Assembly: GCF_001027285.1 (NCBI RefSeq)
Contig: NZ_CP011509.1
Coordinates: 7,402,501-7,466,500, forward strand
Source of the DNA: Archangium gephyra
GTDB taxonomy: Bacteria; Myxococcota; Myxococcia; Myxococcales; Myxococcaceae
Direction of reading: 5' to 3'
DNA length: 64,000 bases
Part shown: in pieces, positions 47,004 through 60,832 of the stretch
Position numbering within the stretch: position 1 is the stretch's first letter
Layout of the letters: each line of letters starts with the position of its first letter
Position numbers and translations under genes: made by a program
The notes under the pieces: generated by a model
Database searches by the model: none
The model's input: only the letters and a program-made list of their open reading frames with translations
What the model was told of the DNA's origin: nothing

Positions 47004-47600
47004 TCAGAACGTGTACTTCACCCGCGGGAAGAAGGCGAAGGTGGGGATGTTGGGCCCGATGAGGTAGCGGGCCAGGAAGTCCGCTCCCACCGAGAAGTGG
47101 TCCATCGGCGTCGCGTACTCGATGCCAATGCCCAGCCCCGCGTTCGGCGCCGTCAGGGCCGCTCCCGGGTCTCCACTGCCCACCGGCGCCGGATCCAACC
47201 GAGACAGGCCCGCCGCCACCTTCGGCATCAAATACAGACGGTCCGCCAGCGGCACCATGTACGCCGCCGTCACATCGGCGAACGCCACCGTGAAGTTGTC
47301 GGACATGCTGCACACGTTCGTGCCCGGCATGTACCCGGCGAAGCAGTTCGCCGCCGACGCGCCCAGCCCGAAGTGCACGCCCATCGAGATCTTGTCCGTC
47401 AGGTCGTACCCCACGCCCAGCTGCAGGTACGTCTGCGCGTTCGAGTAGATGTTCTCCCCGCCCAGCGTGAAGAACGTGCCGATGTCGGCCTCGGTGAAGA
47501 AGCCGCGGCGGACCTCCAGCGGAACACCTTCCGGCGGAGTCCCCGCCAGAGCGGTAGTGGGCAGCATCGCGAGCACGGCGGCCAACAGCGGCTTCTTCAT
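47004..47600 (-). CDS. Outer-membrane beta-barrel, Nfs/Glt machinery (NfsH/GltH-like)
   Basis: 198 residues. A 19-residue signal peptide (ending TTALA) precedes short alternating amphipathic strands, for example AQTYLQLGVGYDLTDKISMGVHFGLG, here split across several strands, ending in KYTF, the C-terminal aromatic of outer-membrane barrels. It is the eighth and last gene of the cluster, the place of nfsH in Myxococcus xanthus, whose product is an outer-membrane component of the machinery. The family match is inferred from position and barrel type. A hairpin (47622-47650) separates it from the FHA gene by 76 bases. Confidence 0.75.
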   Translation of the reverse strand: MKKPLLAAVLAMLPTTALAGTPPEGVPLEVRRGFFTEADIGTFFTLGGENIYSNAQTYLQLGVGYDLTDKISMGVHFGLGASAANCFAGYMPGTNVCSMSDNFTVAFADVTAAYMVPLADRLYLMPKVAAGLSRLDPAPVGSGDPGAALTAPNAGLGIGIEYATPMDHFSVGADFLARYLIGPNIPTFAFFPRVKYTF

Positions 47601-47621
47601 ATCGAAACAACCCTCACAAAG

Positions 47622-47650
47622 AACCCTCTCCCCATAGGGGGAGAGGGGTT
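47622..47650 (-). terminator. Intra-cluster hairpin between FHA gene and last barrel gene
   Basis: Arms AACCCTCTCCCC and GGGGAGAGGGGTT with one bulged G and loop ATA(G). On the minus strand it is followed by CTTTG, so it is a weak terminator or attenuator. The arms also resemble the REP-like family at 571 and 22962. Confidence 0.45.
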
Positions 47651-47676
47651 TTCGTTACGGTTCGAGATGCGTGCGA

Positions 47677-49587
47677 CTACTCACCCGCGGGCGAGAACAG
47701 CCACGGGTACGTCACCGCCACCACACCGCCACCCTTGGGCTCGGGGAACTTCCAGCGGCGGATGCGCGAGAGCATGCAGTTCTCCGCGGCCGAGCTGTTC
47801 AGCGTCGTCTCCGTCACGTTCGCCTCCGACACCGCTCCCGCCGGGTCGATCGTGAAGGCCACCGCCACCTTGCCCGCGAGGCTCGGGTTCTTGTTGAGCT
47901 CGGTCTCGTAGCAGTACTTGATCTCGTTCTGGTGGCTCCGGATGATCTTGGCGATCACGTCCTTGTCGAGGCCGCCCACCACCGTGGTCTTTCCGGGGAC
48001 GATCTTCGTCACCGACTTGCCACGGCCCGCCAGGTCGATGCCGCCGCCGTCACCCGCGCCGCGGCCATTGCCCTTGGTGCCCAGGCCGCCGAGGCCCAGC
48101 GCGGTACCGCCACCGCCCGTGCCCGAGCCACGCGAGCCGAGTCCGCCCACGCCCTGCGCATCCCCGAGACCCGCACCGCTCTTGAGGCCGCCCAGCGCGT
48201 TGTTGATGCCCGTGCCCAGGCCACCCGGACCGAAGACGTCCGAGGCGCCACCCTTGAGGTTCTTCATCGCGCCCAGGATGCCCACCCGGCCCACCACCTT
48301 GCGGTCCTGCTCGCGCTTGTTCTTGTTGACGATGTTGGTGCCCGGCTTGGAGGGATCGGCCTCGGCCTTCTTCGCCTCCTCCTTGCCGAACTTGCCTTCC
48401 TCGCCCTTGGCCTTGGCGCCTTCCTCCACGCCCTTGAGGTCCAGGCGCTTGGTGTCGATCTGCTTCGCCGGCTGCACCAGGAACTTCGCCACCCGCTGCT
48501 GGCTCGCGAAGATGTCGTCGCTGGACGGAGCCTCGGAGCGAGGCGTGAGCAGCATGGCCGCCAGGAACGCGCCGGCCGCCAGGAAGCTGATGCCGGCGAT
48601 CTTGAACCAGGTGAAGTCCGTCTCGGCCAGCGAGCTCACCGCCACGGCGGGCGATGGCTTCACGTAGCGCACCACGAAGGTGAGCGTGCCCAGCGACACC
48701 TCCGCCCGGTCATGCAGGCCGAGCGTGTACGCGTGCTCCTTGCCCGAGGCCGTCAGCTTGCCCTCGGCGCGAAGGCTGTCCTTCGTGCGCACGTCACCAT
48801 TGTGGGTGACGATGACGCCCGCGGACTCGGGCACGTGCAGCTCGTACAGCTCGCCGCGCCCCACCGCCAGCACGTGACGGGCCCCCACCTCGGACTCGAA
48901 GACGTGGAAGAAGTTCTTCTTCGCCTCGCCGATGGTGACCGGCACTCCGTCCCGGAAGTGCTGGATGGACATCATCTGGTCGCCCCAGAGCAACTGCACC
49001 TGGAGGACCTTCGCGTCCTTGGTGGGCAGCGCCTCGGGCGGCAGCGGCTCGCGGATGTGCGCCGCCACGAGCGAGCGTGCCTTCCGCGCCGCCGGAGCCG
49101 GAGTGTTCCGCACCGCCTGCTCGGGAGTGGCCCGGTTGCGCAGGCCCGGAGGCACCACCCGGTTGCCCACTTCCGGAGCGCGCGGCTCCGGGGCTCGAGG
49201 GTGCAGCAGGGAGCCCTGCAGCCCCACCCCACTCTCCACCTGCGCACCCGCTGGAGGAGGCGGCGTCTCGGCGTTGCCGAAGAGCACCTCCACCCGCGAG
49301 CCACCCAGCATCAGCACGTCACCCGGCGAGAGCGTCCGCGGTCCCACCACCCGCTGACCCCCCACCTGCGTGCCACTCTCGCTGCCCAGATCAATGGCCG
49401 TCACCGAACCCGTGGACTCGACCTTCAACATCACGTGAAGGTTCGAGACCCGAGGGTCCAACAGCTTCACCGCCGCCTGAGCGCCCGAGCCCACGATGAC
49501 GCTCTCGGCCTCGGAGACAGCCTCGTGCACGGAGCCATCCGGCCCGGTGATCCGCAGCTTCAATCCATTCTTCTTCCCCGCCGCCAT
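47677..49587 (-). CDS. FHA/transmembrane/AgmX-PglI C-terminal protein (NfsG/GltG-like)
   Basis: 636 residues. An N-terminal FHA domain (about 10-104; VGSGAQAAVKLLDPRVSNLHV with Ser48 and His51) binds phosphothreonine. A second FHA-like region lies at about 195-310. A single membrane segment is at 328-347, followed by a Lys/Glu then Gly-rich periplasmic stretch. The C-terminal TonB-like AgmX/PglI domain (about 545-636, IIRSHQNEIKYCYETELNKNP and later CMLSRIRRWKFPEPKGG) would contact the outer membrane. It links a cytosolic signal to the envelope, as GltG and NfsG do. GGAGGAAGG before ATG 49587 fixes the start. Confidence 0.9.
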   Translation of the reverse strand: MAAGKKNGLKLRITGPDGSVHEAVSEAESVIVGSGAQAAVKLLDPRVSNLHVMLKVESTGSVTAIDLGSESGTQVGGQRVVGPRTLSPGDVLMLGGSRVEVLFGNAETPPPPAGAQVESGVGLQGSLLHPRAPEPRAPEVGNRVVPPGLRNRATPEQAVRNTPAPAARKARSLVAAHIREPLPPEALPTKDAKVLQVQLLWGDQMMSIQHFRDGVPVTIGEAKKNFFHVFESEVGARHVLAVGRGELYELHVPESAGVIVTHNGDVRTKDSLRAEGKLTASGKEHAYTLGLHDRAEVSLGTLTFVVRYVKPSPAVAVSSLAETDFTWFKIAGISFLAAGAFLAAMLLTPRSEAPSSDDIFASQQRVAKFLVQPAKQIDTKRLDLKGVEEGAKAKGEEGKFGKEEAKKAEADPSKPGTNIVNKNKREQDRKVVGRVGILGAMKNLKGGASDVFGPGGLGTGINNALGGLKSGAGLGDAQGVGGLGSRGSGTGGGGTALGLGGLGTKGNGRGAGDGGGIDLAGRGKSVTKIVPGKTTVVGGLDKDVIAKIIRSHQNEIKYCYETELNKNPSLAGKVAVAFTIDPAGAVSEANVTETTLNSSAAENCMLSRIRRWKFPEPKGGGVVAVTYPWLFSPAGE

Positions 49588-49634
49588 AGAGGATCCTTCC
49601 TCCTCCCTTCCATCCGCCATGCCCACGCCGCCCA

Positions 49635-49916
49635 TTAGAGGTTGTCCACTGACTTCTGCAGCTCGGGGTTGAAGTTGTCGCGGACCCGGATGAGGCTCTG
49701 GAAGTCCGTCTTCTTCCGGTTGAGCACGTACGAGCCCTCGGGCTTCGTGAGCTCGCCCTCCACCGCCATGTCGGTGAAGTCGATCGTCGTCTTCTTGCGA
49801 ACGACGACCTTGTCCTCCTCCTGGATGACCTTCACCTGGGTCTGCGGCTCCTCTTCCGCGAGCGCCGGCCCCGCCCACAACGCCACCACCGCCACTACCG
49901 CTGCCAGTCGTCTCAT
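49635..49916 (-). CDS. Small secreted protein of the Nfs/Glt cluster (F position)
   Basis: 93 residues. A Sec signal (MRRLAAVVAVVALWAGPALA) is followed by a charged, strand-rich domain with VKVIQEEDKVVVRKKT and DFQSLIRVRDNFNPELQ. It occupies the place of the small gltF/nfsF gene between the TPR lipoprotein and the FHA protein. Its role is unknown beyond the machinery's periplasmic assembly. It sits 47 bases upstream of the FHA gene and 176 bases after the TPR lipoprotein stop, where a secondary promoter could lie. Confidence 0.8.
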   Translation of the reverse strand: MRRLAAVVAVVALWAGPALAEEEPQTQVKVIQEEDKVVVRKKTTIDFTDMAVEGELTKPEGSYVLNRKKTDFQSLIRVRDNFNPELQKSVDNL

Positions 49917-50092
49917 GTCGGCCTCCTCGTCGGATGGGACAGCGGGTCCCAGATGAGGTTCCCTCAGCTTCCTTGCACGCCCTGCACCAACGTCCCGGGT
50001 GATGGAATCCCGCGAAATCCCTGCGAAGCGCTTCCACCCGCCCCACGTGAGGCCCCAGTAAGTGGAAAAATTTTCCCACTGGGACCGGTAGG

Positions 50093-51481
50093 TTATTCGG
50101 CCTTCGGGGCCTCGGCCGGAGGCTCGGCCGCCGGCTCGCTCGGGGCCGGCGAGGCCGCCGCGCCCTCGACAAGCGTGGCACCACTCTCGGCGGGCGCGGC
50201 ACCTTCGGCGGGCGCGCCCTCCTGCGGCGCCGACTCATCGGACACCTTGTCGAGCATCGAACCACTGCCTCCGACGGCTGCCGGATTGGGGGCCTTCTCC
50301 TCGGGCGCGGCCTCGGGCTGGCCATTCTTGCGCATGGCCGCGATGCCCTGGAGCTTCGAGTCGATCAGCTGCTTGTCCTGTGCGCTCGTGGAGCCCAGGT
50401 CCTTGCAGCGCTGGAGGAAGCCCTCGGCCTTGTCCCAGCCGGCGCGCTCGACGGCGTAGGCCCAGCCCGCGCCACAGACGGCCTCGGGCTGCTCCGCGCG
50501 CAGCGTGAGCACCTTCTCGAAGGCCTCGCCCGCGGCGATGCCCTTCTTCGCGTCGCGGCCCTTCTGCCCGTCCAACGCATACGCGTAGTAGAGCCAGGCC
50601 TCGTGCGAGCCGGGCTCCAGTTCCACGGCCTTGGAGAAGGAGCGCTCGGCGCCCGCGTAGTCGCGCCAGGCCAGCGCCATGGCGCCGAGGTTGAGGTAGC
50701 CGGGAGCGAAGCGCTCGTCGAGCGACACGGCCTTCTGGAACTGCGCGAGCGCGCGGGGCCGGTCTTCCAGCTTCAGGTAGATCATCCCCAGGTTGTTGTA
50801 GATGCCGGGGTCCTTCTCATCGAGCTTGCGCGCGTTGGCGAGCACCAGCTCGGCGAGCCGGTACTTGCCCTGGTCGTAGTAGACGAGCGCGAGGTTCTTG
50901 TACGCCTCGGCGTCATCCGGGTGGCGCGCGAGCACGCGGCGGGCGGTGGCCTCGGCCTGCTCGTGCTTGCCGGCGAGCCGGTAGGCCACGGTGAGGTTGT
51001 TGAGCAGCGACGCCTCGTACTCGCGGCCCTTCACCTTCAGCCCGGCCTCGTAGAGGGAGATGGCCTCCTCGTACTTCTCCTGCACCCGGTACAGGCGGCC
51101 CAGGTTGAGCAGCGTGGGCACATGGCCGGGCTCGAGGAAGCGGACCTTCTCATAGGCGGCCTGGGCGTCGGCGAGCCGCCCCTGGCGCTCGGCGATGATG
51201 CCCAGGTTGAACTGGGCGTTGAGGCTCTGGGGCGCCCGGGCCACCACCTCTCGGAAGCCCTCCTCGGCCTTCGCGTAGTCACCCGCGTCGAAGGCGGCGA
51301 CGGCCTGGGCGAAGGTCTCCCGCATGTCGCGCTCCTGCTTCGTCTCGGCGACGGGAGCGGGAGCCGGAGCGGGCGCCGGAGCCTCGGTGGTGGCCACGGG
51401 CACGGGCTTCACCTGCGAGGTCGTGGCGCACGCGGTCGTGAGGGCCAGCGTGGCGGCGGCGAGGGTGCGGCGGAACGCCAT
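50093..51481 (-). CDS. TPR lipoprotein, Nfs/Glt machinery (NfsE/GltE-like)
   Basis: 462 residues. A lipoprotein-like signal ends in TTAC (Cys18), then a Pro/Ala spacer. TPR repeats run from about residue 60 to 380, with units such as NLGIIAERQGRLADAQAAYEKV, NLALVYYDQGKYRLAELVLANARKL and NLGMIYLKLEDRPRALAQFQKAV broken into 34-residue steps. A low-complexity Ala/Pro/Glu tail ends the protein. This is the layout of AglT (GltE) and its paralog NfsE, an outer-membrane lipoprotein scaffold. AGGGAG before ATG 51481 fixes the start over an in-frame extension. Confidence 0.88.
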   Translation of the reverse strand: MAFRRTLAAATLALTTACATTSQVKPVPVATTEAPAPAPAPAPVAETKQERDMRETFAQAVAAFDAGDYAKAEEGFREVVARAPQSLNAQFNLGIIAERQGRLADAQAAYEKVRFLEPGHVPTLLNLGRLYRVQEKYEEAISLYEAGLKVKGREYEASLLNNLTVAYRLAGKHEQAEATARRVLARHPDDAEAYKNLALVYYDQGKYRLAELVLANARKLDEKDPGIYNNLGMIYLKLEDRPRALAQFQKAVSLDERFAPGYLNLGAMALAWRDYAGAERSFSKAVELEPGSHEAWLYYAYALDGQKGRDAKKGIAAGEAFEKVLTLRAEQPEAVCGAGWAYAVERAGWDKAEGFLQRCKDLGSTSAQDKQLIDSKLQGIAAMRKNGQPEAAPEEKAPNPAAVGGSGSMLDKVSDESAPQEGAPAEGAAPAESGATLVEGAAASPAPSEPAAEPPAEAPKAE

Positions 51482-51525
51482 GAACGTACTCCCTGCGGAT
51501 GCCTGCGGATGCATGTGCGTCACCT

Positions 51526-54500
51526 TCACGGCTGGGCCTCCCCGGAAGCGGTGGGCGGAATGGGCGCCGCGTTGCCCGCGGGAGCCGGGGTCTCATGGGA
51601 AGCGGGAGCCGGAGCCGCGGGTGCGGCGGGCTCCTGGGAAGCGGGAGTGGCCTGGCTGACCTCGGGGAGGCCGGGCTCCTTGGCCACGTCCGAGGTGACG
51701 AAGAACTCGCTGCCGCGGAAGGGCACCTGGCGCACCTGGGCGTAGGCACCGGGACGGTAGCGGTTCACCTGGTCCTGCGCGGCCAGGGTCCACTCGTTGT
51801 AGAGCGACAGCTCGTAGGCCTTGCCCAGCGCCTTCTCGAGCGCCTCGGTGGCCTTGTCCTCCAGCGGGAGCGCGAGGTTCTCCAGCTCGCCGCGGTACAT
51901 GGCCGTCTGCTCCTCGTCGAGCCCGGCGGGATCCGGCGACTCGAGGATGTTGCGCGCGAAGTCGGCGTAGGCCAGGCCGATGCGGGTGAGCGCGGCGATG
52001 CCCCACTCGCCCGAGCCGGTGCCGAGCACGTCCACGTAGGCCTTCTCCAGCTTCTGGATGGACTGCTGCTTGGCGGTGAGGTCGCGCCGGATGGTGGCGA
52101 CGCTCTTGAAGCGGATGTTCGTGTACCGCTGCCAGTCGTACTCCACGGCGAGGAAGCGCGCGTGGCCGTAGGCGTCGAGCAGGTCCGGCCGCTGCTTCTC
52201 CTCGGGGGACAGCTTCGCCCAGCCGCGGACGAGCTCGCCCTGCACGCGCTCGGTGTCACGCGCGTTCTTCAGCTCGCGGTAGGCGATGAGCTGCCGGTAG
52301 CGGGCCAGGTAGAGCTGGGCGGCCGAGGTGCGCGAGTCGCGCCCGTACGTCTCGGCGAAGGACTCGAAGGCCCGCGCGGCCTCGGCCGGCTTGTGGTCCT
52401 TCTCGTGGACGAGGCCGATGTTGTAGGCGAGCTGCGGCACGTCCGGCCGGTCCTTGAAGCGGGACATGTACGCGCGGTAGGCGGAGATGGCCTTGTCGGA
52501 CTCGCCCACGCCCTCCCACCAGAGGCCGGCGTTGAAGAGGGCATCCGGCACCCACTTGCTGGCCTCGGCGAGCAGCTGGCGGCGCTCCTCGTCCTTGCTG
52601 GAGCGGGCCTCGTCGGCGCTCGGCGCGTCGGAGGACAGGGACTCCTTCTTCGCGTCCTTGCCCTTGGCGTCCTTGCCCTTCGCGTCCTTGCCCTTGCTGG
52701 CCACCGGCTTCGCCTTGCGAGCCTCATCGGCGCGGGTGGCGGCGTCATGGGCGTCCACGAAGGCGGCGTACATGGCGGCGGCCTTGCGGAACTCGGCGAG
52801 CTTCTCGTAGAGGCGCGCGAGCGTGTAGCGGATCTTCGGCTCGAAGGGGCTGCCCGCGTAGTCGGTGAGGACGCGCTCGCCGGCGGCCACGCCGCGGTCG
52901 AGCTGCCCGGCCTCCTGGAAGATGACCATGGCCGAGGTGAGCGCGCGGTCCGCGTTCTCCGACCTGGGGAACTCCTTCACGTACTCGAGGAAGAGCTCGG
53001 CGGCCTTCGCCGGGTTCTTCTCCTTCTGGTAGACGACCTCGTGGATCCACTTGTACTGCGAGCCCTCGACGACGCGGGCCACGCGGGTGGCGAACTCGGG
53101 GCTGGGCTTGAGCAGCTTCTCGTTGGCGAGGAACTGCCGCGAGAGCTTGTTGAGCTCGAGCCACTCCTCGCGGGACTCGAGCACGTACATGGTCAGGTCC
53201 GCCGCGTCACGCGAGCGCCGCTCGGCGGGGTACTTGTTGATGATCTCCCCGAAGCGCCGGGCCGCGTCCATGTAGTGGTGGCGGTCGTAGACGATGAGGG
53301 CGGCCTGGTAGCGCAGGTCGATCTCATCCGGGTTGTCCGGGTAGAGCTTGTTGTAGGTGTCGCACGCGGCGACCAGCCGATCCTCGAAGCGCGTGAGCGG
53401 CTCCTCGGCCTGATCCGTGTCCTTCTTGGTGATGCGGCCCTTCTTCTCGATCTGGCCCTTGGACTTGTTCTCGTCGACCTTCTGGCCGTCCTTGAGCTCG
53501 CTCCTGGCCAGCTGACCGCGCTCGATCTTCACGAGCTTGTCGTAGGCCATGATGGCGGCGAAGGAGGCGTTCTTGCGGTAGGTCTCGTTGGAGACCTCGC
53601 GGGCCGAGTCGCGCTCCGGAATCTTGAAGGCGACCACTGCGTCGTACTGGGCGGCGGCGGCCTCCCACTCCTCGAGGGCCCAGAGGATCTCCGCGTAGAA
53701 GAACCGCATGTTGAAGGCGGAGTCGGAGATGAACTCGGGATCCTCGCTGGTGGCGAAGGTGTCCACGTACTGCTTGTAGATGTCGCGGGCGAGCCGGTAC
53801 GTCTCCACCTGGCGCGTCTTCTGCGCCTCCTGGTGGTAGTCGGTGACCATGACGCGCATGGCCTCCTCGGTGACGCTGAAGGCGTTGCGCAGCACGGGCT
53901 TGTTGCCGGTGTTGGCCTGCCACCACTCGCTGCCGGGACGGTACAGCTCCACCATGCGCTTCATCTCGGCGCGCACCTGGTTGCGCTGGCGCAGGCCCTC
54001 ATGGGCGCGGACGATGGACTGCTGGTAGTCGGGCGCGCCGGGGCCCATCGGCTTGTCCTGGATGAGGACGCGGTACGTCTCGATGGCGCTGTCGTACAGA
54101 CCCACGTCCACGAGCTGGGCGGCCATCTTGGAGATCAGCCGCTCCTGGCGCTTCTCGGGAGCCTTGGCCTTGAAATAGGCGATGCCCTCCTTCGCCTTGT
54201 CCAGCTTGACGAAGAAGACGATGACGTCGTTGAGCGACTCGGTCTTGAGGTCACCCAGCTCCTCGCCGCGATCACCGGCGTAGTCCACCACCTCCTGCAG
54301 CTTGGCGAGACCCTCGTCGTAGGCGCCGCCGTTGTAGTCGCACCACGCCAGCTTGTAGACGGCGTAGGCGTAGACCTTGGGCACCTTCGAGGCGCGCGCC
54401 TTCTCGTAGTAGGAGCGGGCCTCCTTGAGCTTGTTGTTGTCGAAGTAGTGGTTGCCCAGCTGGACGTAGGTGTCCGGGACGAACTGCGACTGGGGGAACT

Positions 54501-55230
54501 CCTCGATCAGCTGCAGGTAGCGTTTCACCGCGTCATCGCGCCGGCCGAGCTCCTGGAGGTTGTAGCCGAGGTAGAAGAGGATCTCGTCGCGCTGGGGCCA
54601 GTCCACGTAGCCGCCCAGCAGGTCCTCGTAGATGCGCATCGTCTCGGCGCGGAAGCGCTCGCTCTCGCGGTGATCCTCCTTGGGCGCCTCCAGCTTGTCG
54701 CCGCGGGCGGTGGCCGCGTCGAAGGCCTTCTCCGCCTCGAGGTAGCGGTTCATCTCCTGCTGGTAGAGGTACTTGGACTTCTCCCAGTAGAGCTCGGCGA
54801 GCCGGTAGAGCATGTCCGCCCGGCGGTGCGAGCCCTCCTGCAGCTTGGGGATCAGGCGCTTGAAGCCCTCGATGGCCTCGTCGCGCTTGCGGTCCGCCAG
54901 CCCGTCCTTCTGGGCATCGGCGATGCGCGGCGTGTTGTCCGATCCCGGACCCATGCGCGCGGGACCCATGCGGGCCGGGCCCTGGCGCTCGGGCTCCCGC
55001 TCCTGGGGGGCCTGACGCGCCGCCTCCTTGGAAGAGGCGTCCTTGGAAGCCGCCTCGGCCTCCTTGGAAGGGCCTTGCTTGGACGAGGCCTGCTTGCGCG
55101 CGGCCCCCTTGCGCGACTCCGCCGCCGCCTGGGAGGCCTTCTTGCCCGAGGGCTGTGCCGCCTCCCCTGCTCCGCCCGCGGTGAGCGCCACGCCCACCGC
55201 CAGCGCACCGAAACGAAGGACCGCCTTCAT
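51526..55230 (-). CDS. Giant TPR protein, Nfs/Glt machinery (NfsD/GltD, AgmU-like)
   Basis: 1,234 residues with a signal peptide (about 24 residues) and a low-complexity Lys/Ala/Ser/Gln-rich stretch to about residue 110. The remainder is a long run of TPR units (for example LYRLAELYWEKSKYL, YLGYNLQELGRRDDAVKRYLQLI and YVQLGNHYFDNNKLKEARSYYEKA, each within a 34-residue step). A charged insertion KGKDAKGKDAKGKDAKK lies near residue 850. The size and order fit AgmU/GltD or NfsD, the periplasmic hub of the machine. AGGAG precedes ATG 55230. It is divided from the preceding cluster gene by a terminator-like hairpin. Confidence 0.9.
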   Translation of the reverse strand: MKAVLRFGALAVGVALTAGGAGEAAQPSGKKASQAAAESRKGAARKQASSKQGPSKEAEAASKDASSKEAARQAPQEREPERQGPARMGPARMGPGSDNTPRIADAQKDGLADRKRDEAIEGFKRLIPKLQEGSHRRADMLYRLAELYWEKSKYLYQQEMNRYLEAEKAFDAATARGDKLEAPKEDHRESERFRAETMRIYEDLLGGYVDWPQRDEILFYLGYNLQELGRRDDAVKRYLQLIEEFPQSQFVPDTYVQLGNHYFDNNKLKEARSYYEKARASKVPKVYAYAVYKLAWCDYNGGAYDEGLAKLQEVVDYAGDRGEELGDLKTESLNDVIVFFVKLDKAKEGIAYFKAKAPEKRQERLISKMAAQLVDVGLYDSAIETYRVLIQDKPMGPGAPDYQQSIVRAHEGLRQRNQVRAEMKRMVELYRPGSEWWQANTGNKPVLRNAFSVTEEAMRVMVTDYHQEAQKTRQVETYRLARDIYKQYVDTFATSEDPEFISDSAFNMRFFYAEILWALEEWEAAAAQYDAVVAFKIPERDSAREVSNETYRKNASFAAIMAYDKLVKIERGQLARSELKDGQKVDENKSKGQIEKKGRITKKDTDQAEEPLTRFEDRLVAACDTYNKLYPDNPDEIDLRYQAALIVYDRHHYMDAARRFGEIINKYPAERRSRDAADLTMYVLESREEWLELNKLSRQFLANEKLLKPSPEFATRVARVVEGSQYKWIHEVVYQKEKNPAKAAELFLEYVKEFPRSENADRALTSAMVIFQEAGQLDRGVAAGERVLTDYAGSPFEPKIRYTLARLYEKLAEFRKAAAMYAAFVDAHDAATRADEARKAKPVASKGKDAKGKDAKGKDAKKESLSSDAPSADEARSSKDEERRQLLAEASKWVPDALFNAGLWWEGVGESDKAISAYRAYMSRFKDRPDVPQLAYNIGLVHEKDHKPAEAARAFESFAETYGRDSRTSAAQLYLARYRQLIAYRELKNARDTERVQGELVRGWAKLSPEEKQRPDLLDAYGHARFLAVEYDWQRYTNIRFKSVATIRRDLTAKQQSIQKLEKAYVDVLGTGSGEWGIAALTRIGLAYADFARNILESPDPAGLDEEQTAMYRGELENLALPLEDKATEALEKALGKAYELSLYNEWTLAAQDQVNRYRPGAYAQVRQVPFRGSEFFVTSDVAKEPGLPEVSQATPASQEPAAPAAPAPASHETPAPAGNAAPIPPTASGEAQP

Positions 55231-55440
55231 GCGAGCTCCTGTGGAGGGTGCGAGGAAAAAAAGAGCGCGCCCCTCCAGCTCCACAGAGAAGCCGGGCCGC
55301 CCCCATCGCCTCCCTCACCACCTACCGAAAGGGACGATGGAAAGTAGAAATGCAGGGTTGGAATGAGAAGTGCTCCACCAGGGAAGATCCGTGGGATCCG
55401 ACCCGGCCGGACGGAGCGAGGATTCAGGGCTGAACAAAGA

Positions 55441-55485
55441 CGAAGGGGCGGAACCCACGCGCATGCGCACGGGCCCGCCCCTTCG
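55441..55485 (-). terminator. Hairpin between the ABC and DEFGH parts of the cluster
   Basis: An 11-base perfect stem CGAAGGGGCGG / CCGCCCCTTCG (55441-55451 and 55475-55485) encloses a second palindrome GCGCATGCGC. On the minus strand it is followed by TCTTTGTT, so it fits a rho-independent terminator or attenuator after the repeat-protein gene. Confidence 0.65.
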
Positions 55486-55508
55486 CGTCCTCCACCCCCG
55501 TAGAGGAC

Positions 55509-57044
55509 TTATTTTTGCTGGAGCTTGGCCGGACAGCCGCGCTTCAGCGTGTACTGGTAGTAGCCGATCTCGTCGCGCCAGAACTCGCCCTGGAACTTCC
55601 AGTAGTTCCACGCGGCCCCGGGCATCTTCGGCCGGTAGATGGACTGGGTCTTCAGGACGGCCTTCTGGTCCACGCCCGCCAGCAGCAGGTCCTTCTCGTC
55701 GAGCGCCGTCTGCACGCGGATGATCTCCGCCTGGTCCGCGAAGGTGCGCAGGTTCTGCGCGGCCTCCTGAAGGCGGCTCTTGGCGAAGCGTCCGCCGATC
55801 TGCATCAGCGTGCCGCGCACCTGCTCCAGCGAGGAGACGATCTCCGGCACCATGCCCGTGCCCTGCCAGTCGCTCAGGGCGGCCACCTCGCGCTTCTCGG
55901 TGTCCACCTGCTCGATCATCCGCATCACGTCCTGGATGCGCTCGTTTCCGCGGATCCACAGGTAGATGGGGCGCGGCAGCCGCCGGTTCTCCGCCGCCAC
56001 CAGGTTGTAGGCGCTCAGCAGATCCACGTCCTCACCAGAGAACGGCTCGAGCTGCTTCGCCATGGGCTCGTAGAGCTGCTCGTAGGCCGTCAGCGTGGTC
56101 TTCACCTCGTCGAAGAGGCAGCTGTAGTAGTAGACGGTCGCCTTGAGGATCCACGACTCGGGCTGGAAGGCGCCCTCGAACTGCGGAGCATGCAGCGCCT
56201 GGAGGCTGCCGAGCGCCCCGCCGAAGTCCTCGTTCTGGAAGCGGGCGAAGCCGTTCTCGAAGAGGGCCTGATCCCAGAAGCGGGCGTAGCGCGGCACGTC
56301 CTCGTAGGAGGCGACGGCCCGCGGGTACTCGTGGCGGCCGTAGTGCAGGCGGCCGATGCCCAGCAGGGAGAGCTGCTTCACCTCGTCATGGGCGATCTGC
56401 GGCGCCTTGGCGTCCAACGCGCCCTTGAAGGCGGCCAGGGCGGCGGCATCCAGCGCGTCCGCCTCGGCGGGACGGCCCGGGAAGTGCGGATCGGCCAGCA
56501 CCACGCCCAGCAGGTAGCGGGCGCGGGCATAGACGCGGCTGTCGGACGGCACGGCCTCGAGCAGCGCGCGGGCCTCCTCGAAGCGGCCGCGGCGCTGGCG
56601 GATGGTGGCCACCTGGTACTGCACGCGCGCCAGCACCTCGCGAGGCAGCCGCACCCACTTGTCCTGCACCTCGGGCGTGTAGGCCTTGTCGAGGATGTTG
56701 GGCACGAGGTTCTGCTCGTTGAGCTGCTGCTGCACGTCCACCAGTCCCTCCAGCGCCTGGAAGTAGGACGGGTGCTGGGGGCCGGTGTTGACGATGGCCG
56801 CGTAGGTGACGAGCGCGCTGATGTGCAGCTTCTTCCGGGCGTACGTCTGCGCCAGGTAGAACTCGGACCGGGCGCGCACGTCGGTGTCCTGCGCATTGGA
56901 GGCCAGCTCGAAGAAGAGCGGGGCCGCGGCGTCCAGCTTGCCCGCGTTGAAGTTCGCGAGCGCCTGGGTGTACGTGTTCATGTCCTGCGCGGAGACGGCC
57001 AGCGGCGCGAGGACCAGGAAGGTGGCGAGAATCAGTCGGTGCAT
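55509..57044 (-). CDS. Repeat-rich secreted protein, Nfs/Glt machinery (NfsC/GltC-like)
   Basis: 511 residues. A Sec signal (ending AVSA) precedes helical TPR-type units such as QALANFNAGKLDAAAPLFFELASNAQ and AFFEN-type helices (DQALFENGFARFQNEDFGGALGSL), then a C-terminal part with KMPGAAWNYWKFQGEFWRDEIGYYQY over several strands and helices. Position three in the cluster matches GltC/NfsC, a periplasmic TPR protein bound to the outer-membrane barrels. Its stop is followed by a hairpin; the upstream barrel gene ends 10 bases before its start, so the first three genes are tightly linked. Confidence 0.82.
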   Translation of the reverse strand: MHRLILATFLVLAPLAVSAQDMNTYTQALANFNAGKLDAAAPLFFELASNAQDTDVRARSEFYLAQTYARKKLHISALVTYAAIVNTGPQHPSYFQALEGLVDVQQQLNEQNLVPNILDKAYTPEVQDKWVRLPREVLARVQYQVATIRQRRGRFEEARALLEAVPSDSRVYARARYLLGVVLADPHFPGRPAEADALDAAALAAFKGALDAKAPQIAHDEVKQLSLLGIGRLHYGRHEYPRAVASYEDVPRYARFWDQALFENGFARFQNEDFGGALGSLQALHAPQFEGAFQPESWILKATVYYYSCLFDEVKTTLTAYEQLYEPMAKQLEPFSGEDVDLLSAYNLVAAENRRLPRPIYLWIRGNERIQDVMRMIEQVDTEKREVAALSDWQGTGMVPEIVSSLEQVRGTLMQIGGRFAKSRLQEAAQNLRTFADQAEIIRVQTALDEKDLLLAGVDQKAVLKTQSIYRPKMPGAAWNYWKFQGEFWRDEIGYYQYTLKRGCPAKLQQK

Positions 57045-57054
57045 GGCGAGGGTC

Positions 57055-58152
57055 TCAGAACAGGAGGGAGAAGCCGCCGTAGAAGCTCAGGTTGTTGAGC
57101 ACGTCCGAGGACGGGTTGCTGACCAGGTCCTTCCCCAGGACGATGTCCTCGCGGTAGGCCTTGCGCGTCTTCGGATCCACCCCGTCGAACTTCTGGAACT
57201 GGCAGCTGCCCGTCAGGCCCAGCTGCGAGAAGTCCTGGCCGGTGCCCCGCGCGTCCTCCAGCTTCTGGAAGTCCTGCAGGTTGCAGCCGTCCACCCGGTC
57301 CACGCGGGCGGTGTAGACGAGGTCTCGCACTTCCAGGCGCAGCGCCATGGAGTCGCCGAACTGGACGCGGAAGCCACCGCCCACCGAGCCGAGGAACTTC
57401 GTCCCCGTGTCGCCGAAGCGCGCCGGGACGTTGAACGTCTCCTCGCCCACCTGGTTGGAGACCTCGGGACGGACGAGCACGCGCGTGGAGCCGATGCCCG
57501 CGCCGCCGTTGAGCACCAGGCTGAACTGCAACAGGTGGTTGTCGTAGAAGGCGAACTTGCCGTAGAGCGGCGTCACCTCCACGCCCGCCTGCGCGCCCCA
57601 CACCAGCAGCAGCGCCGAGGCCGCCTGCGCCTGCTCGCGCACCTTGTCGATGAGCTCCAGGTTGAAGAGGCTCTCGTTGGAGTACCAGTTGTACGTGCTG
57701 GAGATCTGCAGGCCGAAGTTCTCCTGCAGGTGGTAGGTGTAGTGCAGCGCGCTGCCGGCGTGCTCGGTGAAGCGGCCATTCACCTGGGCCACCACCGGGT
57801 AGAGCGTGAACTCGTGCCGGCCCTCGTCCGCGAAGCGCTTCTTCTGCACCACGTGGACGGCCACGTTCGGGTTGTGCAGCGGCGCCCCGTTCACCAGGCG
57901 CTGCTCATTCGGATCCGCCACCGGCTGCAGCTCGGGATCTCCCGTCACGGCCAGCGGCGCGTCCGCGGGAGCCACGGGCGCCTGGGTGTCCAGGGGCTCG
58001 GGCGCGGGCGGCGCGGGCACATCGGGCGCCGGGGACCGGAGCTCCGGCTTCACGGGGATGGGCGCCGTCTCCGAGGGCGGCGCCGGGGTCTCCTCCTGCG
58101 CGGAGGCCAGCGTGGCGGACAGGAGAACGGCGAGGAACGAGGTCGGTCGCAT
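57055..58152 (-). CDS. Outer-membrane beta-barrel, Nfs/Glt machinery (NfsB/GltB-like)
   Basis: 365 residues. Signal peptide (about 18 residues, ending ASAQ), then a Pro-rich spacer (about 20-65) and a beta-barrel domain with a terminal aromatic (GGFSLLF). Strand examples are FTLYPVVAQVNGRF, NFGLQISSTYNWYS and GVEVTPLYGKFAFYDNHLLQFSL in separate strands. The N-terminal proline spacer suggests a periplasmic contact. It lies 14 bases after the first barrel gene and 10 bases before the repeat-protein gene. This A-B-C layout equals gltABC/nfsABC of Myxococcus xanthus. Which paralog cannot be decided without alignment. Confidence 0.82.
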   Translation of the reverse strand: MRPTSFLAVLLSATLASAQEETPAPPSETAPIPVKPELRSPAPDVPAPPAPEPLDTQAPVAPADAPLAVTGDPELQPVADPNEQRLVNGAPLHNPNVAVHVVQKKRFADEGRHEFTLYPVVAQVNGRFTEHAGSALHYTYHLQENFGLQISSTYNWYSNESLFNLELIDKVREQAQAASALLLVWGAQAGVEVTPLYGKFAFYDNHLLQFSLVLNGGAGIGSTRVLVRPEVSNQVGEETFNVPARFGDTGTKFLGSVGGGFRVQFGDSMALRLEVRDLVYTARVDRVDGCNLQDFQKLEDARGTGQDFSQLGLTGSCQFQKFDGVDPKTRKAYREDIVLGKDLVSNPSSDVLNNLSFYGGFSLLF

Positions 58153-58166
58153 GCGGGACGTCAGCC

Positions 58167-58982
58167 TCAGAAGATGAAGGAGTAGCCGATATCGAACTGC
58201 ACCAGATGCGTCAGGCCGGGGTTGGGGGCGGGCGTGCCACTGTCCTCACCCCGCTCCCACAGCTCGCGCTCCACGTTCACGCGGTACTCGTCCGTGAAGA
58301 CCCAGTCGCGCAGCTCGAAGCGCAGCGCGTGCCCGTTGGACATGAAGAAGCGGAAGCCCACCGCACCGGTGGCCACCGGCGCCACACGCGTGTCCACGCG
58401 CCAGAAGGACTGCGTCGCGGTGGTGCCGTCGTTCGGATCCGTGCGGTTGTCGCAGATGCCCAGATCGCGGTTCACCACGTTGGTGCACTGGATGACGGAC
58501 TGGCGCCGCAGCGAGGCCAGCCCGCCACCGGCCCAGAGGTAGGCCTGGAAGTGCGCCGACTCATCGGCCAGCAGCGACAGCTTGCCGTAGATGGGTGCCC
58601 AGCGCGCGCCCACCACGCCGTGCAGATTCATCTCCCACATGTCCTCGAGTTCGTCCGTGAGCTTCTTGTCCTCGCGGGCGAGGAAGCTCTCGGAGATGGA
58701 GCGCGCCAGGCCCGTGTGGCGGCTGAGCGCGTAACCCGCGCGGGCCTCCACCCCGAGCGTGTTGAAGAAGTTGTAGGCCAGGCCGGCGTTCAGGTTGTAG
58801 TGCGCGGTGAGGTACTCGCGCGCGGGCAGGCCCACCGTGAAGGACGCCTCCAGCCGCTCCCCCGGAGAGAAGAGCCGGTGGCGCACGGCGGCCGGGTCCA
58901 GCACCTGCTCCTGGGCGGAGGCCGACAGCGCCGTCAGCACCAGGGCCAGCGAAACGAAACGGGGAAGGTTGCGTGCGTTCAT
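58167..58982 (-). CDS. Outer-membrane beta-barrel, Nfs/Glt machinery (NfsA/GltA-like)
   Basis: 271 residues. A Sec signal (about 23 residues, ending ASA) is followed by a beta-barrel domain related to the next gene product: both carry AYNFFNTLGVEARAGY or NFGLQISSTYNWYS, a WAPIYGKLSLL or VTPLYGKFAFY strand, an AGGGLAS or GGAGIGS turn, and a late LRFELRDWVFTDEYR or LRLEVRDLVYTARVD strand. The pair therefore looks like a duplicated OMP_myx-type barrel. It is the first gene of the cluster. The long ORF start at 59228 runs through the upstream terminator, so ATG 58982 is used; no strong ribosome site is visible. Confidence 0.83.
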   Translation of the reverse strand: MNARNLPRFVSLALVLTALSASAQEQVLDPAAVRHRLFSPGERLEASFTVGLPAREYLTAHYNLNAGLAYNFFNTLGVEARAGYALSRHTGLARSISESFLAREDKKLTDELEDMWEMNLHGVVGARWAPIYGKLSLLADESAHFQAYLWAGGGLASLRRQSVIQCTNVVNRDLGICDNRTDPNDGTTATQSFWRVDTRVAPVATGAVGFRFFMSNGHALRFELRDWVFTDEYRVNVERELWERGEDSGTPAPNPGLTHLVQFDIGYSFIF

Positions 58983-59114
58983 GACCGTGTGGCGCACACA
59001 GGTGGGCACGCGATCACGCATGAGCAAGGGACCAGGCTCACTCGGAGCGTGCTTTCCTTTACACACGGCATGCCAGCGCACGCTGGCCAACGTTTCCGGG
59101 GCCCGGAAACACGA

Positions 59115-59240: not shown

Positions 59241-59915
59241 TTACTTGGTGCGGGCCGCCTTGTGCTGCTCGCGCAGCGCCACCTTGATGCTCGGGCGGAT
59301 GATCACGATGCCGTCGTTGTGGCCGGCGACCGTGCCCTTGATGAGCAGCAGGCCCTTCTCCACATCCACGTCCACCAGGGTCAGGTTCTGGGTGGTGACC
59401 TGCTCCACGCCGTAGTGACCGGGCAGCTTCTTGTTCGGGTACACGCGGCCGGGCGTCTTACGCTGACCGATGGCGCCCGGGTGACGGCGGTACTCGTGCG
59501 TGCCGCGCGTGGCCGTCTGCGAGCCCTTGAACTTCCAGCGCTTCATGACGCCCTGGAAGCCACGGCCCTTGGTGACGCCCGTGACGTCCACCAGTTGGCC
59601 CTTGGCGAACAGGTCCGCCTTGACGGCGTCGCCCACGTTGAAGCCCGCGGCCTCCTCGGGGGACACGCGGAACTCCTTCAGGTGACGGCGCAGCTGCGCG
59701 CCGCTCTTCTTGAAGAAGCCCAGCTTGGCCTTGTTCAGGCTCTTCTCGCGGATCTCCCCGAAGCCCAGCGTCACCGCCGAGTACTTGTCCTTCTCCGGAG
59801 TCCGCTTACCCACGACCTGGCAGGTGTTGACGTCGACCACCGTCACCGGAACGAGGTTGCCCTCGTCGTTGAACACCTGGGTCATTCCCACCTTCTTACC
59901 GATAAGACCCTTCAC
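59241..59915 (-). CDS. rplC: 50S ribosomal protein L3, solitary copy
   Basis: One of the first proteins to bind 23S rRNA; it lies near the peptidyl-transferase centre. 224 residues. The N-terminus MKGLIGKKVGMTQVF, the loop GFQGVMKRWKFKGSQTATRGTHEYRRHPGAIGQRKTPGRV (spread over the known extended finger) and the C-terminal half are intact. In most bacteria rplC sits between rpsJ and rplD in the S10 operon; here neither neighbour is present, and it has its own terminator. It may be a relocated or duplicate gene. The start is MKGLIG at 59915. Confidence 0.96.
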   Translation of the reverse strand: MKGLIGKKVGMTQVFNDEGNLVPVTVVDVNTCQVVGKRTPEKDKYSAVTLGFGEIREKSLNKAKLGFFKKSGAQLRRHLKEFRVSPEEAAGFNVGDAVKADLFAKGQLVDVTGVTKGRGFQGVMKRWKFKGSQTATRGTHEYRRHPGAIGQRKTPGRVYPNKKLPGHYGVEQVTTQNLTLVDVDVEKGLLLIKGTVAGHNDGIVIIRPSIKVALREQHKAARTK

Positions 59916-60058: not shown

Positions 60059-60832
60059 TCACTGCGCGCGATCCAGGCGCGGGTAGAACGGAGCGAGCTG
60101 CGCGTCCTGGATGCGCTGGGCGTAGACGTCCTCGCCGAGGAGGAACAACGCCTGATCCAGATAATCCTCCGCGGCCTGGACCTCGGTCTCCTTCTCGGCG
60201 ATCGCCCGGTCGATCTCCGCCATCGCCTGGTCGACCTCTTCCTTGTGGCCCGTCATCTCGTCTTCCATGTCCAGCATGCGCTTGTGCGCCAGGATGCCGG
60301 GCGCACCGGGCTGGCCGGGCTTGGGAGTGAGCGCCAGCTCCACCTGCCGCTCGAGGTCCTCCACGTCACGCGCCAGGCGCATCATCGCGATGCGGTTCTT
60401 CTTGATGTTGTCGCGCGAGAGTCCGAGCTTGGACTCGTCCGTGGTGACGAGCTCCAGGTCGGCGTGCTTCTTCTCCAGCTTCTTGAGCGCGTCCTGGGCG
60501 TAGCGGAGATCCGCCCGGCGGTTGGACAGCGTCTTGCGGAGGGTCTTGGTCTGCCCCTCCACGGCGTCCACCGCCTTCTTCCACTTCTTGACGATCTCGA
60601 ACTCGGCGGCCCGCTTGTCCTCGTACTGGGCGAGGTAGTCCTGCCAGGCCGCGTCCTCCTCGTTCATCTGCTGCTCGAGCGCGGCCAGCTCGTCCCGCCG
60701 GGCCACCAGCGCCGCCTCGGCGCGGTACACGCGGTCCATGGTCCGGGGACAGTTGGGCTTGCCCGCCAGGCGATCTCTCGCGAGATCGCCGAGCTGGAAA
60801 ATCAGATCGTTGTAGCTCTCCGCCTTGGCCAT
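60059..60832 (-). CDS. Coiled-coil protein of unknown function
   Basis: 257 residues, no signal peptide. After a short globular start (MAKAESYNDLIFQLGDLARDRL, with one CPRT) it is almost entirely alpha-helical with heptad patterns in two long segments (about 45-165 and 190-235), split by a loop with LTPKPGQPGAPGIL. This is a rod- or dimer-forming coiled coil. No enzymatic motif and no family recognised. It starts 32 bases after the neighbouring gene stop on the same strand, so they are probably co-transcribed. Confidence 0.82.
   Translation of the reverse strand: MAKAESYNDLIFQLGDLARDRLAGKPNCPRTMDRVYRAEAALVARRDELAALEQQMNEEDAAWQDYLAQYEDKRAAEFEIVKKWKKAVDAVEGQTKTLRKTLSNRRADLRYAQDALKKLEKKHADLELVTTDESKLGLSRDNIKKNRIAMMRLARDVEDLERQVELALTPKPGQPGAPGILAHKRMLDMEDEMTGHKEEVDQAMAEIDRAIAEKETEVQAAEDYLDQALFLLGEDVYAQRIQDAQLAPFYPRLDRAQ

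Follow-up and report, generated by a model that had tools for sequence, protein, structure and literature searches.

A stretch of 64,000 nucleotides from the genome of Archangium gephyra (hereafter the window; bases 7402501-7466500 of the 12,489,432-base, single-contig genome searched here, with the nearest sequence matches coming from Archangium species) carries eight genes that very probably represent the orthologous nfsA-H operon of this Archangium, the best account of which is a motor-driven spore-coat transporter. Sequence identity, profile scores, a joint tree of the D, E and G proteins and single-gene trees concur in placing these genes with the nfs operon of Myxococcus xanthus, NfsF being the only exception, and apart from the paralogous glt genes involved in gliding.

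The original prediction of a complete eight-gene envelope machine in A-to-H order is borne out by the open reading frames (ORFs), which all lie on the minus strand and run from position 58982 to position 47004 of the window. The genes nfsA (58167-58982, 271 aa) and nfsB (57055-58152, 365 aa) encode two related outer-membrane barrels, both of which pass the TIGR04565 model (191 and 67.6 bits; cut-off 60), and are followed by nfsC (55509-57044), which encodes a 511-aa repeat protein. TPRs were found by the family scan in the products of both nfsD (51526-55230, 1,234 aa) and nfsE (50093-51529, 478 aa), the latter being a putative lipoprotein according to homology and the first reading of the sequence. 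Downstream of a gene for a putative secreted protein of 93 aa, nfsF (49635-49916), nfsG (47677-49626, 649 aa) encodes a protein that combines an FHA domain (43.6 bits; cut-off 20.7), a transmembrane segment and a TonB-like tail (NF033768, 120 bits, cut-off 40; TIGR01352, 28.4 bits, cut-off 27.1); the NCBIfam TonB and AgmX/PglI tail models were thus passed, and the Pfam TonB_C model scored 22.1 bits, slightly under its cut-off of 24.6. The third outer-membrane barrel, NfsH (47004-47600, 198 aa), passes the CglE model (207 bits; cut-off 70). From A to H, the intergenic gaps are 14, 10, 278, -4, 176, 8 and 76 bases. A crude screen based on GC3 (G+C content at third codon positions) recovers seven of the eight ORFs, with A and D called from earlier starts; nfsG is missed because its ORF, when taken from the first start codon (882 aa), overlaps nfsF.

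Assignment to the Nfs lineage

In M. xanthus, nfsA-H (MXAN_3371-3378) is described as one operon with the A-H order, as the original prediction had stated, and the published protein lengths are 294, 442, 512, 1202, 499, 94, 682 and 200 aa (PMC2875238). The nfs genes of M. xanthus AM003 (locus L111) served as the reference; its reading frames for C, D, F and H are consistent with the lengths in print (512, 1202, 94 and 200 aa). The window shares with this operon the eight genes, their order on one strand and similar protein lengths, although NfsB has 365 aa here versus 442 aa in M. xanthus. The identity between the window proteins and M. xanthus NfsA-H lies in the range of 59-72% (67, 68, 69, 63, 59, 72, 65 and 70.5%, respectively), whereas the identity between the A-E proteins and M. 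xanthus GltA-E is only 28, 27, 24, 29 and 27%. Because M. xanthus GltF-H are outside the view (the contig ends inside gltE), the F, G and H proteins were compared instead with the Glt proteins encoded in the Archangium genome itself, with scores of 47, 228 and 28 bits. Within this scheme of comparison, all eight proteins are nearer to their Nfs than to their Glt counterparts.

The joint D+E+G tree (44 rows, 1,921 columns, built with a quick method and with support from the Shimodaira-Hasegawa-like approximate likelihood ratio test, SH-aLRT, only) groups the window with A. violaceum, A. lansinium and M. xanthus nfs, and the Archangium genome's own glt genes with M. xanthus glt, each at SH-aLRT 100. 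The grouping of the window with nfs recurs in a 48-row D+E+G tree and in trees built from A/B, C, E, G or H alone; NfsA and NfsB each group with the M. xanthus counterpart at SH-aLRT 99, and NfsH does so at 94.

These results bear directly on the possibility that the operon encodes gliding (Glt) machinery. The paralogous gene sets comprise the same eight families, with the same internal order within each M. xanthus glt cluster, and NfsH passes a Glt-named model. Nevertheless, the window proteins lie outside the Glt clade in the trees, the A-E proteins show only the 24-29% identity mentioned above, and the genome has a glt set elsewhere, with A-E proteins 62-73% identical to M. xanthus GltA-E; the combination of the tree and the separate glt clusters refutes this reading, which we consider scarcely credible. 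The own glt genes D to H are located at 4.919-4.927 Mb and are followed by a 4,120-codon ORF and by GltJ (894 bits), and the own gltB, A and C genes are found at 9.15 Mb. The long ORF occupies the place of gltI, an assignment made by position and length only; M. xanthus gltI is reported to encode 4,132 aa (PMC3169522). The M. xanthus glt genes, in turn, are described as two clusters that include gltI, gltJ and gltK, as the original prediction had held for the split as such and unlike the single block in the window (PMC3169522).

The profile scores follow the same division. The window C, E, F and G proteins score below the cut-offs of the NCBIfam GltC, GltE, CglF and GltG models (206/450, 117/225, 76/90 and 352/650 bits), as do M. 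xanthus NfsC, E, F and G (209, 120, 68 and 338 bits), whereas the Archangium genome's own GltC, E, F, G and J pass the Glt models with 1063, 752, 138, 1013 and 894 bits. The CglE (GltH) model is passed alike by the window NfsH (207 bits), the own GltH (177 bits) and M. xanthus NfsH (213 bits), all above the cut-off of 70, and is not diagnostic between Nfs and Glt because M. xanthus NfsH also passes it. In practical terms, the nfs call is settled here for a locus in which the scanned NCBIfam models give the C, E, F, G and H proteins Glt or Cgl names.

The original prediction also allowed that the operon might be a third paralog set; G4 and G5 of M. xanthus are sets of this kind. Such a set is indeed present in this genome, but it is located at 3.90 Mb (C, D, E, F and G; L016:5117-15732) and has its counterpart on M. 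xanthus contig C76 (L113), with which it groups in the D+E+G tree with support of 97-100, far from the window. When the Archangium genome was searched with the D protein of L114, the M. xanthus set that diverges most, no separate counterpart emerged: the matches were the three sets already described and weak TPR hits. The tree refutes this reading for the window, and we regard it as very improbable. Likewise, no separate second nfs operon was found in searches of the whole genome with NfsD and NfsC, the two of the eight proteins used as queries at this scale; no further match exceeded 33% identity.

Three observations weigh against the assignment to nfs and its interpretation as a motor-driven machine: the pass of NfsH in the Glt-named CglE model, which M. 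xanthus NfsH shares; the NfsF tree, which lacks resolution because the protein has only 93 residues; and the motor genes, among which NCBIfam gives no AglR name, so that AglRQS was not assigned among at least two triples consisting of one MotA-family and two ExbD genes.

Motor genes and proposed mechanism

No MotA-family gene is located near the operon, and seven are present elsewhere in the genome; at least two of the seven, at 3.53 and 1.16 Mb, precede two ExbD genes (ten neighbour ORFs scanned). A dedicated motor encoded beside nfs was considered and rejected, as the MotA/ExbD proteins of this genome, used as queries, gave no match in the Nfs loci. The only related clusters with MotA/ExbD neighbours were L087 and L092, both outside the Nfs lineage; L022, which also appears in this search, is one of the query loci.

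In M. xanthus, the nfsA-H operon is reported to be needed for spores, with orthologs of conserved synteny in Stigmatella (PMC2875238), and Nfs is required for the Exo polysaccharide to envelop the spore (PMC3858216, PMC2875238). An interaction between AglR and NfsG and the transport of Nfs around spores by the AglRQS motor have also been described (PMC3858216). By orthology, NfsA, B, C and H would form the outer-membrane part of the Archangium complex, and NfsD, E and F would span the periplasm. NfsG would traverse the inner membrane and engage a motor of the MotA/ExbD type, which in M. xanthus is AglRQS. Powered by protons, the moving complex would transport the polysaccharide exported for the spore coat around the cell as it rounds up. 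The envelope layout, motor partner, cargo and sporulation timing in this scheme are all inferred from the work on M. xanthus. A literature search on Archangium nfs in sporulation found no paper.

Contiguity of the operon and the absence of gltI and gltJ

The contiguous layout had been taken to favour nfs, and this argument does not hold because the Glt lineage also contains A-to-H clusters: one is full (L084), and two are nearly so, with A and B swapped and H apart (L085) or without a detected H (L089). Blocks of the same kind occur within the Nfs lineage in L042, L043, L049 and others. Of 20 further loci, selected for a high-scoring D gene and drawn from different families, 16 contain at least one A/B barrel together with C to H in order; in the remaining four, the cluster ends with the contig (L175, L177), has no H match (L170) or consists only of D and E (L167). 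Given that A-H blocks are found in both lineages, the undivided block is probably the ancestral state, and the separation of glt into two clusters in Myxococcus and Archangium a derived one. Contiguity should therefore not be used for telling nfs from glt.

The argument from the missing gltI and gltJ is weak. Their absence is in line with M. xanthus nfs, for which the accounts in PMC3169522 and PMC3858216 give no counterparts of I, J and K, but most of the fetched Glt loci show no gltJ in view either. Searched over the fetched loci with its first 590 residues, GltJ yielded only the Archangium genome's own GltJ and a weak match in L089, of the Glt lineage. Of gltI, gltJ and gltK, only gltJ was searched by sequence; the scan of the genes around the operon identified rplC, HupE/UreJ, proline dehydrogenase, a protein resembling a coiled coil and several ORFs without a name.

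Age of the Nfs/Glt split

It has been stated that glt and nfs likely stem from a recent duplication in a terminal branch (PMC3858216), and several duplications in Myxococcales have been described (PMC3169522). In our analysis, the best tree found that unites nfs and glt of Myxococcaceae/Archangiaceae in one group was worse by 407 log-likelihood units and was rejected by the approximately unbiased (AU) test (p-AU 1e-43); this test was run on 40 rows, with L114, L098, L045 and L052 dropped as long branches, and the group was named after the first tree had been seen. In the 48-row tree, which combines 28 hand-picked rows of the earlier 44 with 20 new ones, 12 loci from other classes fall within the Nfs lineage (support 100), and the loci of the window's class form one group inside it (100). 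All trees are unrooted, and the reading given here presupposes a root outside the Nfs and Glt groups alike.

Two D profiles were additionally searched over 195 genomes of the phylum, and the resulting places were partly checked by trees. Among the places listed for the 48 genomes outside the class, the best places for the two profiles differ in 21 genomes and coincide in 1; the other 26 are not comparable, including two without any match. Both types are present in a single metagenome-assembled genome (MAG), Co_bin.297, where the tree places L050 in the Nfs and L085 in the Glt lineage. The Nfs-lineage A-H clusters of other Myxococcota (within L042-L050 and L159-L178) resemble the window in gene order and, in many cases, in the presence of rplC upstream, but show far lower similarity, and some of those from the same class differ from it by VWA-like and Cys-rich genes in front of nfsA. 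The existence of these relatives suggests that the Nfs machine is older and more widely spread than spore formation.

The upstream region and the linkage to rplC

Directly upstream of nfsA, outside the machine itself and on the same strand, lies rplC (59241-59915), the gene for ribosomal protein L3 (TIGR03625, 263.5 bits; cut-off 142.9). It is the sole L3 match in the genome and stands apart from other ribosomal genes, its scanned neighbours being non-ribosomal. The window and the M. xanthus nfs locus have in common rplC and three more upstream neighbours.

We collected 49 Nfs loci, 36 placed by tree and 13 by best hit only, of which 40 were testable for this linkage; nine were not counted as nfsA/B or the upstream DNA was out of view. 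In 29 of the 40, rplC is found upstream of nfsA on the same strand, up to 3.8 kb off. Not one of the Glt loci (39 in total, of which 33 show 1.1 kb or more of upstream DNA and many have gltA-C elsewhere) or of the 13 third-set loci has this arrangement. The positive loci span nine family codes besides the window's own; many of the 40 loci are close kin and hence not independent. Two observations count against a general linkage: 11 of the 40 have no rplC in view (L042-044, L049, L050, L168, L171-173, L176 and L178; L050 shows only 1.1 kb upstream), and rplC is located downstream of the cluster in two of the five loci of unclear lineage. Overall, the linkage between rplC and nfs provides a simple marker to find and name the locus.

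The two downstream copies of rplC (L058:13601-14371 and L087:19456-20136) stand beside genes for proteins with Ig-like domains. At L053, a locus not placed by tree, rplC is found at 71 bases, with no pair of VWA and Cys-rich genes. Upstream of rplC in the window, positions 60059-60832 encode a coiled-coil-like protein of 257 aa that is conserved in the M. xanthus locus and several relatives.

About 90 bases before nfsA, on the minus strand, we noticed a candidate regulatory element (59072-59097) that consists of a GGAAACGTTG box (59088-59097) followed by a 7+2+7 palindrome (59072-59087). The box and the palindrome are found at the same place in L024 and L038, whereas M. xanthus nfsA is preceded by the box and not by the palindrome, and an Archangium MAG (L026) has neither. 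Inverted repeats of 7 bp are frequent in the window (47).

A VWA-like and Cys-rich gene pair in relatives

In 18 of the 40 testable Nfs loci, nfsA is preceded by a pair of genes (for example, L028:62-4273, L164:14260-17582, L163:1941-5703 and L166:1179-4707), the first encoding a Cys-rich protein (73-79 cysteines in about 600 aa) and the second a VWA/MIDAS-like protein of about 500 aa. The pair is located between rplC and nfsA in 17 of the 18 loci, no rplC being seen in L168. A MIDAS-like motif, LWVVDxSGSM, is present in 14 of the 18 VWA-like proteins; the six that were scanned all show weak similarity, 7e-16 at best and far below the cut-off, to the MIDAS adhesin model from Bdellovibrio, and two of these also match CglD, again far below the cut-off. 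Pfam gives no family for the four scanned VWA-like proteins of L028, L163, L164 and L166.

Neither the window nor L024, L026, L038 or M. xanthus has the pair. The simplest reading of this distribution on the tree is that the Myxococcus-Archangium branch lost it; it may equally well have been gained within the class and then lost. Several observations weigh against a plain loss or against an exclusive association with Nfs. The pair was found in none of the other-class Nfs loci of the 20-locus survey, and thus may be a gain within the window's class. Furthermore, a VWA-like relative is encoded just upstream of the Glt-type L052 cluster (82 bits) and another on the other strand in L045, outside the Nfs lineage (113 bits), so that the VWA-like gene is not confined to Nfs.

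Implications for Nfs evolution

The operon itself is the expected ortholog, and the interest lies rather in the age of Nfs, the linkage to rplC and the missing gene pair. Tentatively, and with somewhat less than even confidence, we propose that Nfs is an old envelope machine of Myxococcota that split from Glt before the classes diverged and was kept as one A-H block beside rplC, together with VWA/MIDAS-like and Cys-rich proteins in much of the window's class, and that the Myxococcus-Archangium branch lost this pair when the machine, which until then had gripped or moved a surface polymer, was adapted to wrap the spore. In a literature search on nfs/Glt in Myxococcota, Stigmatella or duplication, no phylum-wide treatment of Nfs was found, judging by titles and the beginnings of abstracts. 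A 2015 review by Agrebi and colleagues is said to touch on related ground and may overlap with the phylum-wide theme.

The same evidence bears on the idea that the Archangium operon is an nfs ortholog whose main job is not the spore coat, but that of an old surface-polymer or adhesion machine, the spore role being proven only in M. xanthus. Such a role is favoured by the A-H clusters of the Nfs lineage in further classes of Myxococcota and by the VWA-like gene beside nfs in 18 of the 40 testable loci. We nevertheless consider it unlikely for the window: the Archangium operon is sister to that of M. xanthus and both are without the extra genes, so that the specialised form is the closest relative.

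If Nfs indeed predates sporulation in fruiting bodies, orthologs of NfsA-H found beyond the Myxococcus-Archangium group would not indicate spore-making, and the environmental Myxococcota that carry these clusters would be test cases for the original role of motor-driven surface transport.

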